The notes beneath the pieces are model-generated. The model saw only the letters and a program-made list of their open reading frames with translations. It was not told the origin of the DNA and ran no database searches. A program made the position numbers and the translations under genes. From the NCBI GenBank assembly GCA_958296165.1, contig OY282447.1, positions 2,852,001-2,916,000 on the forward strand: a stretch of DNA of 64,000 bases, in the 5' to 3' direction. The DNA comes from an uncultured Pseudomonadales bacterium. GTDB lineage: Bacteria > Pseudomonadota > Gammaproteobacteria > Pseudomonadales > Azotimanducaceae. Below are positions 44,872 through 50,665 of the stretch, one piece after another. How positions within the stretch are numbered: position 1 is the stretch's first letter; each line of letters starts with the position of its first letter.

Positions 44872-45010
44872 GCGCCGTAGCGGCCTGCCTCAGTGAGAAA
44901 CCGATACGACCAACGCACGGGTGTGCGACGTTTTAGTGCGCCAGCGGGAGCCTGTCAGAAATTCCGTGTTTAGCGGGGCCGTAAGATGAGTCCAAACGGA
45001 GGATGACGTT

Positions 45011-46242
45011 ATGGCAAGACGAGCGAAAGAGAAGGGCCGGATCAGCGACGATCTGCTGGACGAGCTGCTGGCGGGCGAGGATCCGGCGGAGGCGTTCCGC
45101 AACGGCGAGTTGCTGTCGGAGATGAAGAAGGCGGTGGCGGAGCGGGCGCTGAACGCGGAGATGGACCACCATCTGTCGCAGGAGCCGGCGCGGCAGTCGG
45201 GCAACCACCGCAACGGCCACAACCGCAAGCGGGTGGCGACGGAGAGCGGGTCGATGGATCTGGCGGTGCCGCGGGACCGTCGGGGGAGCTTCGAGCCGGC
45301 GCTGGTGGAGAAGCACGTTCGGCGGCTGCCGGGCTTCGACGAGAAGGTGATCTCGATGTACGCGCGCGGCATGACGACGCGCGAGATCGCGGCGCACGTG
45401 GAGGAGCTGTACGGGCTGTCGGTGTCGCGGGAGCTGGTCTCGAAGGTGACGGACTCGGTTCACGAGGAGATTCGGCAGTGGCAGTCGAGGCCGCTGGAGC
45501 AGACGTACGCGATCGTCTACTTCGACGCGGTGCGGGCGAGATCCGCGACGAGGGGCTGGTTCGGAACAAGGCGGTGCATCTGGCGGTGGGCGTGACCTGC
45601 GCGGGGCGCAAGGAGGTGCCGGGGATGTGGCTGGCGCGCGAGGAGGGCGCGAAGTTCTGGCTGTCGGTGATGAACGAACTCAAGGCGCGCGGCGTCCAGG
45701 ACGTGCTGATCGCGGTGGTGGACGGCCTGAAGGGCTTCCCGGAGGCGATCGAGGCGGTCTTCCCGGACGCCGTGGTGCAGACCTGCATCGTGCATCTCAT
45801 GCGCCATTCGCTGGCGCACGCCGCCTGGAAGGAGCGCAGGGAACTGGCCGCGGCGATCCGCCCGATCCACCAGGCGCCGACCGCCGAGGCGGCGGAAGCG
45901 GCGCTGGACGACTTCGAGGCCGGGCCGTGGAACGGGAAGTACCCCGCCATCGCCGGAAGCTGGCGGGCGGCGTGGGATCGGGTCGTGCCGTTCTTCGCGT
46001 TCTCGGCCGCGATCCGGCGGGCGGTCCACACGACCAACGCGATCGAGAGCCTGAACTCCACGGTGCGCCGGGCGGTGCGGGCGCACGGCCACTTCCCCAG
46101 CGACCGCGCCGCCGCCAAGCTGGTGTTCCTGGCGCTGCGCAACGTCGCCGCGAAGTGGCGCAACCCGCCGCAGTTCTGGCACGCCGCCCGCGCCGAGTTC
46201 GCCATCCGCTTCGGCGAGCGCTTCCTGCTGGTGGAGCAGTAG
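45011..46242 (+). pseudogene. IS256-family (mutator) transposase, one-base deletion
   Basis: The first frame begins ARRAKEKGRISDDLLDELLA and includes GFDEKVISMYARGMTTREIA and IVYFDAVRA, the first catalytic Asp. The second carries EIRDEGLVRNKAVHLAVGVT, VVDGLKGFPEAIEAVFPDAV (second Asp) and HTTNAIESLNSTVRRAVR (Glu), ending at 46242. CGGGCGAGATC in place of an expected CGGGCGGAGATC near 45535-45542 explains the break. With the base restored the protein is about 410 residues, the family norm. Confidence 0.85.
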
Positions 46243-46321
46243 GCTCGGATTCCGAGGCGCCGGCGGCCTTTTCCGGGGCTCTGCCCCGTACCCCGAAGTA
46301 CATGGGCGTCAGCGCGACGGG

Positions 46322-46347
46322 GGCGGCCTGCCTCTCGGCAGGCCGCC
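46322..46347 (+). terminator. Perfect 11-bp hairpin in the IS256 tail
   Basis: GGCGGCCTGCC and GGCAGGCCGCC pair around a TCTC loop. No U run follows, so it is a terminator candidate only by stem strength; it may instead be a structural part of the element. Confidence 0.4.
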
Positions 46348-46746
46348 TTCGGCTTGCGCCGACGCGCGGCCTATCCGCTTCCAGGGTCCGCGGCTCCGAC
46401 CCTACCGCGATTCGACACGCGCGCGGCAGCACCCTCTTTGGAAAAGATCGATATTCAACGATTGAAATCTTCTTCAGGCGGTGTAGGCTCCCATGTTGTT
46501 GGAGGGCCGTCGGTGTTCTCCAAAGTGTGGCCCCCACACACGGAATTTCTGACACTCCCGCCAGCGGTGAGGCAGCGCTTGGCTGCGGCTTGTGCCGATG
46601 GCGCCAGAAGTCGTCGTAGAGTTCGCTGCGGACGCAGGAACGCAGGGCCATGACGTCGTTGGCGCCGGCCTTGCTCCAGCGCATGCCGGCGCACTTCAGG
46701 CGTTTGTCTGTTTAGATTCCCCCGTGGGCCTTTCGGGAGGGTCCCA

Positions 46747-46908
46747 CCCTGCGTCGCCCTTCGAGGCGCCGCAGGGCAGGCGGTGGTCGGGCCGTTTCAG
46801 GCGTTGGCCGCAAAGGGCCGCAGGCGAGTTTGGTCGGCCACCGTCTTCCCTCCATGTCCTGAACGGATACATGAGCATCGTGGCTCGCAAGACAAGCACG
46901 GGAGGAAG
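46747..46908 (+). ncRNA. Predicted bridge RNA of the IS110 element
   Basis: Three structures in order. A 5' hairpin pairs CCCTGCG (46747-46753) with CGCAGGG (46770-46776). A target-binding loop is closed by GGTGGTCGGGCC (46782-46793) with GGTCGGCCACC (46832-46842) and has an inner GGCC hairpin (46806-46819). A donor-binding loop is closed by CTTCCCTCC (46845-46853) with GGAGGAAG (46901-46908) and has an inner GAGC/GCTC hairpin. Target loop: TTCAGGCGTT (46796-46805) equals the left flank 46695-46704, and GGCGAG (46823-46828) is complementary to the right flank 48115-48120. Donor loop: ACGGATAC (46863-46870) equals the element's right end 48108-48115, and AGACAA (46890-46895) is complementary to its left end. 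This is the architecture known for IS110 bridge RNAs such as that of IS621. Confidence 0.85.
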
Positions 46909-46912
46909 GAAG

Positions 46913-48034
46913 ATGAAGCAGGATACAGCGAACATGGTCGGCGTGGACATCTCGAAGTCGCATCTGGACGCGCATCGGCTGCGCACCGGCGAGGCGGCGC
47001 AGTTCGGCAACGACGCGGCCGGGTTCAAGGAGCTGGCGGTCTGGATCGGCACGGCGGACTGCGTGGTCCACGAGGCCACCGGGCGCTACCACAGGGACTT
47101 CGAGGAGGCGCTCGCCGGGGCGGGTCTCCCGCTGGCGCGGGCGAACCCGTTGCGGGCGCGGCGCTTCGCGCAGTCGATGGGGCGCAACGCGAAGACGGAC
47201 GCGGCGGACGCCGCGGTTCTGGCGCGGATGGGCGCGGCGCTGGATCTGCGGCCGACGGAGCCGCCGGGCAGGGCGCTGCGCGACCTGGGCGACCTGACGG
47301 TCGCGCGCGAGGCGCTGGTGCGGGACCGGGTGGCGGCGCTGAACCGCCGCAAGGGCCTGCGCGTGTCGCTGCTCGGGCAGCAGTGCCGGCGGCGGCTGGA
47401 GCAGATCGACCGGCAGCTCCGGGCCGTCGAAGCGGCGATCGCGCGCGTGCTGGCTGGCGACGAGGGGCTGTCGCGCCGCGCCGAGACGCTGGCCTCCATT
47501 CCGGGCGTCGGGAAGGCCACGGCGGCCGGGCTGCTGGCGGCGATGCCGGAACTGGGCGGCCTCGACGCCAAGGCGGCGGCCAGTCTGGCCGGCCTTGCGC
47601 CGGTGGCGCGCGAGTCCGGCCAGTGGCAGGGCAAGCGCTTCATCCAGGGCGGCCGCGCGCGCGTGCGCCGCCTGCCCTGCATGGCGGCCGTCGCCGCCGT
47701 CCGGCACAACCCCGATCTCGGCCGCAAGTGCCGCGACCTGATCGGGCGCGGCAAGCCGCCGAAGGTGGCGCTGGTCGCCGTCATGCGCAAGCTCCTGCTG
47801 CTGGCCAACGCGCTGCTCCGCCAGAACCGGCTCTGGACGCCGCGAGCGGGCGACGAGCCGGCCGCCGCTCCGCCCGCCGAGGCGGCCGAGGAAGCCGGCG
47901 GCCCTTCGGGCCTTGGCGAAGGGAGCCTCGGCGACCGCAGCCAAGGCCCGAAGGGCCAGCCGCCAGCCCGCCCCGCCTCCGCGGGCGCCCAACCGCCGCA
48001 CGGCACCTCCGACCTGCTTCCAGCCCCTGCCTGA
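46913..48034 (+). CDS. IS110-family recombinase (DEDD transposase)
   Basis: The ATG at 46913, directly after GGGAGGAAGGAAG, gives 373 residues. The N-terminal RuvC-like domain has MVGVDISKSHLDAHR and NAKTDAADAAVLARMG, carrying acidic residues of the DEDD site. The C-terminal Transposase_20 domain has LASIPGVGKATAAGLLAAMP and LAGLAPVARESGQWQGKRFI, with the Ser nucleophile expected near there. The C-terminal 50 residues are a low-complexity Pro/Ala/Gly tail. The frame is intact. The ribosome-binding site lies in the closing stem of the predicted bridge RNA. Confidence 0.92.
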   Translation: MKQDTANMVGVDISKSHLDAHRLRTGEAAQFGNDAAGFKELAVWIGTADCVVHEATGRYHRDFEEALAGAGLPLARANPLRARRFAQSMGRNAKTDAADAAVLARMGAALDLRPTEPPGRALRDLGDLTVAREALVRDRVAALNRRKGLRVSLLGQQCRRRLEQIDRQLRAVEAAIARVLAGDEGLSRRAETLASIPGVGKATAAGLLAAMPELGGLDAKAAASLAGLAPVARESGQWQGKRFIQGGRARVRRLPCMAAVAAVRHNPDLGRKCRDLIGRGKPPKVALVAVMRKLLLLANALLRQNRLWTPRAGDEPAAAPPAEAAEEAGGPSGLGEGSLGDRSQGPKGQPPARPASAGAQPPHGTSDLLPAPA

Positions 48035-49566
48035 CACTCCGAAGACGCCGCGACGGCCAACCTCGAGGGGTGTATCTACATACAGCGCCAAAATCGACAC
48101 TTGCAACACGGATACTCGCCGACCAGCGTTCGGCAGGAGCTCTCCACCATGCCCGAGCCGACCAGCAGCCCCATCTCCCGGTACGCGGGGCAGCGCATCC
48201 GGCCGCGGTTGTTCTCGAAATAGCCGACGCACTGGTCGGCGGTCCTGTCGCCGGCGTGGCGGCGCAGTTCCGCCAGCACGTCGTCGACGCGCCCCTCGCG
48301 GAGCGCCGCGCAGACCTTCTCCGACCAGGCCCGGCACCGCGCCGTGCCGGCGCCGTGCACGGCGCGCCCGACTTCCCAGAGCCGCTCCCGGGCGTGCCAG
48401 ACGTCCACGATGCAGATGGCGTTCGGGAACAGTTCCGCGACGGCGTTCCAGATCCACTTCGCGCCGTCGGCGACCACCGCCTGCCGCTTCGCCGCCGCGA
48501 AGCCGAACCGCTCGGCGGCCCGCCCGAGCCGCCGCGCGAACGCCGACGGCTCCGCGTCCACGTCCTTCGACGCCGCGCTGTCGATCGCCGCCGTGTGCCG
48601 CGCCGAACCCGCGTCCCGCTCCGCCAGGCCGGTCTTCGGATCCTTCCGCTCCGCCGTGTGGAACACCGCCGCCTTCGCCTCCCGCGTCTTCGACGGCTTG
48701 CCGTCCTCCCCCGTCCCCGCGTCGCGCCGCACCACCGGCACGCCCGTGCCGTCCGGGCTGCAGTGCATCGTCTCCGCCGGCGCTTCGACCAGCGCGGCCG
48801 CCGCCTCGTCCCACGCCGCGATCTCCCGACCGACCTGCTTCGCGCAGCGCTCCGCCCGCTTCGCCGTCGCGCCCGCCCCGGCCAGCCGGCCCAGACGCGC
48901 CGCCGCCTTCGCGAAGCTCGTCTCCGCCGCCAGCTCCGCCAACGCCCACAGCGCCGCCGGCGTCAGCCGCGCGCCGCGCCGACCCGCGATGCCCAGCGCC
49001 CGATCCAGAACGTGCAGACCGCCCTTCGAGCACCTGCACGTCCAGCAGCCCCGCCGCAGCGACAGCGGACCCGGCAGCGACAGCGGCGCCGCCGCGCGCG
49101 TGCCGCGCCGGTTCATCGCCGCGCCGCAGCGCCCGCACGCCGGCGCCTCGAACTCCGCGTCCAGTTCCGACAGAACCTCCGAAGCCCCCGCCGCCGCGCC
49201 GGCAAGCAGAGCGCCCCGCAAGTCCAGCTCGAACTCCCGGAACCCCCGCCCGCCGCCCAGCGTCCCCCGGCAACGCCCCCGGAACTCCGCCGACGAAGCC
49301 AGCAGCCGGCCAACCTCCTCCGCCAGAAAAGCCCACTCCTCCTTGCGCTCCAGCGCCTCCCGCGCCAACATCCCGTCCGTCATCGCGATTCCCTTCGCTT
49401 TGGTTGTCGATACCCTCAGCGTAGCCGGGAATCGCGATGACTCTCCAACACCTGCTCGAGCCGCCCGCGCACTGAAACGTCGCACACCCCCAACGCACGG
49501 TGGCGTTGCCGCTTGTGCCCCTAACTCTTAGAATCGCCGCGTTCGCAAGCCGGTGAGAGGCCGACG

Positions 49567-50665
49567 ATGGCCGAACTAACCTCCATCCGTGAAACGCTTA
49601 AATCCCTCGCCGGGCGGGCCGAGGCGCTTCGGGGGTATCTTTGACTTCGCCACCAAGAAGGAACGGCTAGAAGAGGTCGAGCGCGAGCTGGCCCTGCCCG
49701 AGCTGTGGGAGCAACCGGAACGTGCGCAGGCGCTTGCGCGCGAGCAGGCGGCGCTCGGCAACGTCGTCCACACACTCGATTCCGTTGGCGGCGGGCTGGC
49801 CGAATTGGCCGAACTCGCCGATCTCGCGGCGGCCGAACGCGATGGCGAGGCTCTGGACGACATCGACGATGAGCTTCAGAAAATCGATGCCGAACTTGCC
49901 GGCTTGGAGTTCCGGCGCATGTTCCAAGGCAAGCAGGATTTCTCCAATGCCTTCTTGGAAATCCAGGCCGGTTCCGGCGGCACGGAAGCGCAGGACTGGG
50001 CGGAGATGTTGCTGCGGATGTATTTGCGTTGGGGCGAAAAACGCGGCTTTGCCGCGGAGATCACCGAAGTTTCGGCCGGCGACGTGGCCGGCATCAAGAG
50101 TGCCGCCGTGCAGTTTAACGGCGACTACGCTTACGGCTGGTTGCGCACGGAAACCGGCGTGCATCGGCTGGTGCGCAAGTCGCCCTTCGATTCCGGCAAT
50201 CGCCGCCACACGTCGTTCGCCTCGGTGTTCGTATCGGCCGAGATCGACGACGACATCGTCATCGACATCGATCCGGCGCAAGTGCGCACCGACACCTACC
50301 GCGCCAGCGGCGCCGGCGGTCAGCACGTCAATCGCACCGATTCCGCGGTGCGCCTGACGCACTTTCCAACCGGCGTGGTGGTACAGTGCCAAAGCGAGCG
50401 TTCGCAGCATCAGAATCGAGACAGAGCCTACAAGCAGCTGCGCGCCAAGCTCTACGAGCTGGAATTGCAGAAGCAGCGCGCCGAACAACAGGCGATAGAA
50501 GACGCCAAACCAGACATCAGCTGGGGCAACCAGATCCGCTCGTATGTGCTCGACCAATCCCGAGTGAAGGATCTGCGCGCCAATGTCGAACGACACGATC
50601 CCGGCAACGTCTTGGATGGCGACTTGGACGAGTTTATGGAAGCGAACCTGAAGGCGGGGCTGTAA
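49567..50665 (+). CDS. prfB: Peptide chain release factor 2 (programmed +1 frameshift)
   Basis: RF2 recognises UGA and UAA stop codons and releases nascent chains on the ribosome. Frame zero starts at ATG 49567 ([20 protein letters not shown], then LRGYL) and meets TGA at 49642. A +1 shift at CTTTGAC continues [20 protein letters not shown] to the stop at 50663-50665. The product is 365 residues, the same length as E. coli RF2. The anticodon-like SPF tripeptide falls at 205-207 and the GGQ motif at 250-252, again as in E. coli. lysS starts immediately after its TAA. The end of the ISKra4 complex lies about 77 bp upstream. Confidence 0.97.
49630..49645 (+). promoter_or_regulatory. RF2 programmed +1 frameshift site
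   Basis: CGGGGGTATCTTTGAC contains the internal Shine-Dalgarno-like GGGGG three bases before the slippery CTT, then TGA followed by C. This is the classic RF2 autoregulatory cassette: low RF2 slows termination at UGA and favours the shift that makes full-length RF2. Confidence 0.95.

Follow-up and report, generated by a model that had tools for sequence, protein, structure and literature searches.

An IS110-group insertion sequence with a predicted bridge RNA whose guides match conserved transposase codons of an ISKra4 element

Introduction

RNA-guided insertion by IS110-family elements has already been published, as the bridge RNA of IS621 (Durrant 2024, PMC11208160; Hiraizumi 2024, PMC11208158) and as seekRNA (Siddiquee 2024, PMC11187229). 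The catalytic residues of IS621 are given as D11, E60, D102, D105, and S241, and its top strands as cut directly 3' of the core dinucleotide (PMC11208158). Hiraizumi et al. further describe, from covariation and function, that the donor-loop base following the core of the right donor guide pairs with position 7 of the target (PMC11208158). A sigma-70-like promoter formed where the right and left ends join in the circular element is another described feature of bridge RNA systems, and subterminal inverted repeats of 7–17 bp are a feature of the IS1111 group (PMC11208160). Here we describe an element at 46705–48116 of a 64,000-nucleotide stretch of contig OY282447.1 (the window, to whose positions all coordinates refer), which judged by its sequence is an insertion sequence (IS) of the IS110 group with a predicted bridge RNA. 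The genome of the window (G000) is 5.07 Mb in one contig, G013 is a relative genome, and L numbers label loci, L001 being the window copy. What this element adds to the published mechanism is a natural experiment within one chromosome, in which one address is the transposase gene of another IS.

Results

Four guides match the insertion site and the element ends

The features of the element and its guides, all on the + strand, are as follows.

46705..48116, IS110-group insertion sequence, including one core copy at the right end; the ends are common to copies at unrelated sites
46695..46702, left target (LT) TTCAGGCG, inside the flanking ISKra4 gene; sequence match
46796..46805, left target guide (LTG), TTCAGGCG plus core-pairing TT; exact match
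46823..46828, right target guide (RTG), GGCG plus core-pairing AG; exact match
48117..48120, right target (RT) CGCC; exact match
46863..46870, left donor guide (LDG) ACGGATAC; exact match
46890..46896, right donor guide (RDG) AGACAAG, complement of the donor CT-TGTCT; exact match

An earlier sequence-only reading of the window proposed that four guides in the leader match the insertion site and the element's own ends, and all four matches are exact at the positions given. The LTG TTCAGGCGTT (46796–46805) is identical to the left junction at 46695–46704, and the RTG GGCGAG (46823–46828) is the reverse complement of CTCGCC at 48115–48120. The LDG ACGGATAC (46863–46870) recurs at 48108–48115, and AGACAA (46890–46895) is the reverse complement of TTGTCT at 46704–46709. 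The matches have the arrangement of a bridge RNA, in which the 5' sides of the loops pair with the bottom strand and the 3' sides with the top strand, for target and donor alike. The same reading held that four joint matches are improbable by chance, and same-size pseudo-elements placed at random in the window (n = 57,117) agree with it: none shows all four matches, 11 show three, and 638 show two, although the 6-base matches are singly frequent (4,798 and 5,008 of 57,117).

Two guide classes in one chromosome

A DNA search of G000 with the element returned 27 matches, some of which divide a single copy or reflect self-similarity in inverted orientation inside one; together they correspond to about 15 places with copies or fragments, and three copies are full length and uninterrupted (L001, L002, and L003). 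By their guides, G000 copies that are 95–98% identical belong to either of two classes, and the flanks match accordingly. Class A copies, with the guides TTCAGGCG and GGCGAG, lie at one fixed point of ISKra4 transposase genes, between the left flank cttcaggcg and the right flank cgccgaccag (left junctions of L001, L002, L004, L006, L007, L010, and L017; right junctions of L001, L002, L004, L006, and L008). Class B copies, with the guides TT(T/C)CATG and GTGAG, lie at (C/G)ATG-CT-CAC sites; their left flanks are tttcatg (L003) and ttgatg (L005), and their right flanks cacgta (L003), cacata (L005 and L009), cacatg (L012), and cacttt (L018), the copies L009, L012, and L018 being without a leader. 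The target loop of class A leaders reads TTTCAGGCGTT ... GGCGAG, that of L005 TTTCATGCT ... ATGTGAG, and that of L003 TTCCATGCT ... AAGTGAG. Beyond the target loop the G000 leaders are near-identical, with the same donor guides except for AGACAG in place of AGACAA in L005 and L006. Identical leaders beside unrelated flanks had been named as an observation that would speak against guiding, and G000 shows the opposite: L003 (95.8% identical overall) and L005 (97.0% across its longest piece) have a different LTG and RTG, which fit their own flanks.

When guides and flanks were exchanged between classes, the right guides of class A leaders matched class A flanks at 6/6 positions and class B flanks at 4/6, and those of L003 and L005 matched their own flanks at 5/6 and 6/6 and class A flanks at 4/6 each. 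On the left, class A leaders scored 8–9/9 on their own flanks and 5–7/9 on class B flanks, and L003 scored 8/9 on its own and 7/9 on class A. In these sequences the right side separates the classes cleanly and the left side less sharply. A tree of 11 copies built without the leader is poorly resolved, with classes A and B interleaved and the order of their origin not indicated. In the guide stretches, the class B-like loop of L046 is one inserted base and two substitutions away from the class A loop, a short distance between two IS110 addresses.

The leader of L003, on the reverse strand, lacks ~10 nucleotides of the target loop, one arm of the inner hairpin included, yet its flanks fit its guides.

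Repeated insertion into ISKra4 transposase genes

The window copy interrupts an ISKra4 transposase gene on the - strand.

48117..49485, - strand, 5' portion of the ISKra4 transposase gene that the element interrupts (NF033572, 5.1e-60; model positions 52–392); the open reading frame reads on to 48076
46559..46702, - strand, remaining 3' portion of this gene (model position 393 onwards)

The NF033572 match is just below the cut-off (203.8 versus 205 bits). What had been described simply as the insertion site can be specified as a conserved point within this gene: the interrupted ISKra4 copies are broken at model positions 392/393, and the class A target is the antisense of the Gly-Glu-Arg-Leu-Lys codons within LVGERLKC, which uninterrupted copies encode there. 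The ISKra4 genes hit belong to three sublineages, represented by the window, by L002/L004 (99.5% identical right flanks), and by L006/L008 (94.8%). Compared with the window, the right flanks of L002, L004, L006, and L008 are 88.8, 88.7, 89.3, and 87.7% identical and the IS110 copies themselves 98.3, 97.5, 97.3, and 96.4%; between the three sublineages the ranges are 85.5–89.3% for right flanks and 96.4–98.3% for resident IS110 copies. Because the host flanks have diverged more than the elements residing in them, insertion has been repeated, and three sublineages hit at the same point imply at least three insertions. Among the matches listed in a search of open-licence literature, covering titles and abstract openings, no IS110 element addressed to ISKra4 is described.

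Predicted structure of the bridge RNA

Folding and leader alignment place three structural features in the + strand leader, and the element ends hold a further candidate.

46747..46776, + strand, 5' stem-loop of the predicted bridge RNA (folding, z -4.13 for 46741–46776)
46778..46847, + strand, target-binding loop and outer stem, inner hairpin arms 46806–46809 / 46816–46819 (folding, z -3.79; aligned leaders)
46845..46912, + strand, donor-binding loop, closing stem 46858–46861 / 46899–46902, inner hairpin arms 46873–46876 / 46883–46886 (folding, aligned leaders; z -1.23 alone)
48101..48106, + strand, TTGCAA, possible -35 box, which in the circular form meets TAGATT (46713–46718) at 18 bp (8/12 consensus matches)

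The proposal that each guide pair flanks an inner hairpin within an outer stem holds for the target loop, and folding of the leader also recovers the 5' stem-loop; for the donor loop the closing stem (46857–46861 / 46899–46903) is present in the minimum-energy folds of shorter stretches, and a longer stretch folds without it. Structure is conserved among homologous leaders, as RNAalifold recovered a closing helix and an inner helix for each of the two loops from 28 aligned leaders. In this alignment 96.0% of cells are paired and 8/17 pairs change on both sides (shuffled mean 3.4), values that none of 500 shuffles reached; pair types are no more numerous than in the shuffles (175/500). Structures slid out of register are 25–51% paired, a comparison that favours the in-register structure because it was derived from the same alignment. 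Rfam yielded no match at the gathering score in the window and none up to an E value of 1 in 45000–50000. The promoter score at 19 distinct circle junctions averages 8.37, compared with 6.98 for shuffled sequences.

Guides and flanks in other genomes

A genome scan gave 78 loci, including loci in OY282433 (a Gammaproteobacteria metagenome-assembled genome, MAG), OY282460 (a Pseudomonadales MAG), and Acidobacteriota, Gemmatimonadetes, and Alphaproteobacteria records. For the comparison of guides with flanks, 43 leaders from G000 and relatives were kept, with a left flank in 38 and a right flank in 27; L085-, L091+, L123+, L143-, L185-, L011+, and L062+ were dropped as false anchors or duplicates, as was an L088 row that lacked a left end, and L003, which the anchor pattern had missed, was added by hand. 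Left guides match their own flanks at a mean of 7.03/9 positions versus 5.64 for other flanks (31 distinct flanks), and right guides at 6.43/8 versus 5.25 (21 distinct flanks), in both cases with 0 of 20,000 permutations as good; the own left match is at least 7/9 in 18/31. A feature of bridge RNAs is that the target guides of related elements differ according to where each has inserted, and the idea that past target choice can be read from the RNA is supported here, with the exceptions weighed in the Discussion.

In OY282433, the class B-like copies L060, L061, L067, and L068 occupy a repeated site, with cacttcacgttggaatca to the right of all four, ccttcagg on the left wherever a left end was read (three copies), and a similar ccttcag(g/a)ctca motif ~25 bp further; this site is possibly a target resembling repetitive extragenic palindromic (REP) elements.

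Core dinucleotide and handshake nucleotide

Three further positions, on the + strand, concern strand exchange.

46703..46704, left core dinucleotide TT, probably target-derived (other class A junctions have CT; an uninterrupted TT-core site exists elsewhere)
48115..48116, right core dinucleotide CT, the donor core (CT in all right junctions read)
46897, candidate handshake-guide nucleotide C, complement of target position 7 (G46702) (pairing count across elements)

The core had been read as TT on the left and CT on the right, and this asymmetry is real. The other six class A left junctions all have CT where the window has TT, and L094 is also TT on the left and CT on the right. The donor core is CT, spelled AG in both RDG and RTG, and the TT of the window was most likely brought by the target, because one uninterrupted ISKra4 site of this genome (G000:1061713) has a TT core. 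With top-strand cleavage after the core, as in IS621, the left core is expected from the target and the right core from the donor, and the TT/CT pair fits this expectation, lending natural support to top-strand exchange after the core. Natural support for the handshake nucleotide comes from the base following GACA(A/G)G, which complements target position 7 in 27/32 distinct elements (0 of 100,000 permutations as good); the next position is complementary in 8/32 (40,599 of 100,000 permutations). In a set of viral contigs the pairing is seen in 4/7, with the artefact first row of L337 omitted and L329–L331 collapsed onto L328.

State of the ISKra4 target sites

G000 and G013 each have a single uninterrupted occurrence of TTCAGGCG-YT-CGCC, in both cases with a TT core. 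The lists of ISKra4 sites cover 40 of 95 candidates for G000, 40 of 124 for G013, and, in another G013 list, 24 of 61, and may therefore be incomplete. At least 22 uninterrupted close ISKra4 sites were read (3 in G000 and 19 in G013), a count that leaves aside the 35-bp fragment L215 as well as miniature derivatives and ISKra4 copies of greater divergence. Twenty of the 22 listed sites have at least one mismatch to the class A guides (TTCAAGCG is an example of a variant target), two are perfect with a TT core, and none is perfect with a CT core; 19 of the 20 mismatched sites were read in frame, and in those 19 the amino acids are unchanged. The left target is perfect in all seven class A left junctions of G000.

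These observations invite the idea that an IS110 lineage, given a new address by a few mutations in its guides, is a hyperparasite of ISKra4: its RNA would read conserved transposase codons, the perfect CT-core sites found in the chromosome would all have been filled, and the surviving ISKra4 copies would owe their survival to synonymous changes in the guide-matched bases, in an RNA-guided arms race of two IS families. We regard this as speculative and rather unlikely. The saturation is a pattern and not a test of selection, as copies are related and G013 elements carry other guides. Synonymous escape is kept apart from the guiding mechanism because the ISKra4 copies of the same lineage all come from genomes with these IS110 elements; the ISKra4 matches of other genomes that aligned are 66–68% identical over the target region.

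A 2-bp loss at L038 in G013 was considered as an out-of-register insertion and rejected, the host being a miniature ISKra4 derivative already 2–3 bp shorter there. Eight uninterrupted G013 copies of this derivative were read (L309–L316), all with the shortened target, L038 lies inside such a copy, and L055 has the same shortened junction. Where read, the ends of the miniature element are GGTGTGCGACGTTTTTGTGCGCG and its reverse complement.

Recombinase and group assignment

46913..48034, + strand, IS110 DEDD recombinase, 373 amino acids (translation and profile/structure matches)

The recombinase matches PF01548 (DEDD_Tnp_IS110, 1.6e-21), PF02371 (Transposase_20, 2.2e-18), and NF033542 ('IS110 family RNA-guided transposase', 3.6e-58), all above the cut-off, and in a PDB search the solved structures of IS621 (8wt6 E, 6.2e-27) and ISCro4. 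Residues D12, E54, D96, D99, and S235 are invariant in a five-sequence alignment and aligned to ISCro4. The protein combines the DEDD RuvC-like domain with the C-terminal serine transposase domain that define the IS110 group. As in that group, the left non-coding end (208 bp before the coding sequence) is longer than the right (82 bp after it) and contains the structured RNA region; the IS1111-group arrangement, with the RNA in the right end, is not seen, the guide-bearing region lying upstream of the coding sequence.

Two more IS110-family transposases of G000 (NF033542; L198 at 3769606 and L205 at 4507716) lie outside the DNA matches of the element. Elsewhere in the window, a Mutator-type transposase gene (PF00872; 45011–46242) is broken across two overlapping frames. 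At 49567–49660, prfB contains CGGGGGTATCTTTGAC; the ATG frame from 49567 runs to a TGA and the release factor 2 (RF2) body resumes in the +1 frame, with profile matches to PF03462 and PF00472 in the region. We presume from its motif that CGGGGGTATCTTTGAC is a canonical programmed +1 frameshift site.

Discussion

Taken as a whole, an RNA-guided explanation, in which a bridge RNA from the left end directs insertion, in this case into ISKra4 codons, is very probably correct. It is built on the four matches, the conserved structure, the tracking of flanks by guides, and the repeated ISKra4 insertion, as read from the sequences. The bridge RNA would be made from the left end of the element. Its target loop would pair with both target strands: on the left the LTG would bind the bottom strand, and on the right the RTG would bind the top strand. 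The donor loop would do the same at the junction where the ends of the circular element meet, and strand exchange by the recombinase would take place at the CT core. By analogy with IS621, transcription, formation of the circle, and activity are expected. The target loop of the window copy would be written for the Gly-Glu-Arg-Leu-Lys codons of ISKra4, in antisense, and copies with another loop would be directed to another site.

Several observations weigh against this explanation. The left guide of L005 matches its own and class A flanks equally (7/9 each), the own left match is 6/9 or less in 13/31 distinct left flanks, and the LTG of L063, TTTCAGGCT, adjoins an unrelated flank; many elements thus either match loosely or have had their ends misjudged. 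At the G013 junction L318, whose own leader is lost, the LT TTCAGCCG has one mismatch to the class A guide, so a one-mismatch site has been used at least once. A held-out set of viral contigs (11 loci) points in the same direction as the other genomes but is small and weak (LT, n = 8, one artefact row included, 293 of 20,000 permutations as good; RT, n = 6, 1,035 of 20,000). The donor loop is weak when folded alone (46845–46912, z -1.23), and the fold of a longer stretch swaps out its closing stem and retains the inner hairpin only. The circle-junction promoter of the window copy, at 8/12, is equalled by 17% of shuffles.

If the matches were chance products of a GC-rich leader in a regulatory 5' UTR, single 6-base matches should be common, as indeed they are in the pseudo-elements; the absence of all four together from every control, the guides that track flanks in other copies, and the conserved structure make the probability of this practically negligible. 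A single ancestral insertion, followed by copying of an ISKra4::IS110 composite through ISKra4 transposition or segmental duplication, would make the shared flanks uninformative about guiding. Some hosts are indeed close, as are those of L002 and L004, and L038 and L053 of G013 carry the same 40-base right flank. However, the right flanks of the sublineages differ by 11–15% and their IS110 copies by 2–4%, the IS110 copies of L002 and L004 (97.9%) are less alike than their 99.5% identical hosts, uninterrupted ISKra4 copies near these lineages persist in the genome, and class B copies lie at unrelated sites, so that we consider one insertion very unlikely to account for the data. The guide strings could also have been acquired from the flanks after insertion, by gene conversion or drift to match, instead of choosing the site. 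In G013 the LTG does follow the exact flank (TTCCAGG beside ctccagg and TTTCAGG beside gttcagg), but the same class A loop is found in diverged ISKra4 sublineages, LTG and RTG read opposite target strands, and in the published work reprogrammed IS621 and ISEc11 loops direct insertion (PMC11208160, PMC11187229), which leaves acquisition with scant probability.

Under the RNA-guided explanation, G000 is a clear natural case of near-identical copies with two guide sets at two kinds of site, and an IS address is here written in conserved codons of another transposon. The closest counterpart is IS621 (Durrant 2024, PMC11208160; Hiraizumi 2024, PMC11208158), which shares with the window element the recombinase family, a left-end RNA with a 5' stem-loop, target loop, and donor loop, the polarity of the four guides, the CT core, a top-strand cleavage after the core that fits TT/CT, and the candidate handshake nucleotide. 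The two differ in sequence, being diverged at the level of the 8wt6 match, and the window element has the ends CTTGCAACACGGATACT / TTGTCTGTT. The targets of IS621 described in print are REP elements, whereas here they are ISKra4 codons for class A and (C/G)ATG-CT-CAC sites for class B. ISEc11 and ISXne4 (Siddiquee 2024, PMC11187229) likewise are related elements whose RNAs have different target-matching regions and whose sites differ; their transposases are given as 72% identical, whereas the copies compared here are 95–98% identical in DNA and share one chromosome. An IS110-family address within another transposon is also reported for IS4321 and IS5075 of the IS1111 group (Partridge and Hall 2003), which target the terminal repeats of the Tn21 family, whereas the window element, of the IS110 group, targets the codons of a transposase.

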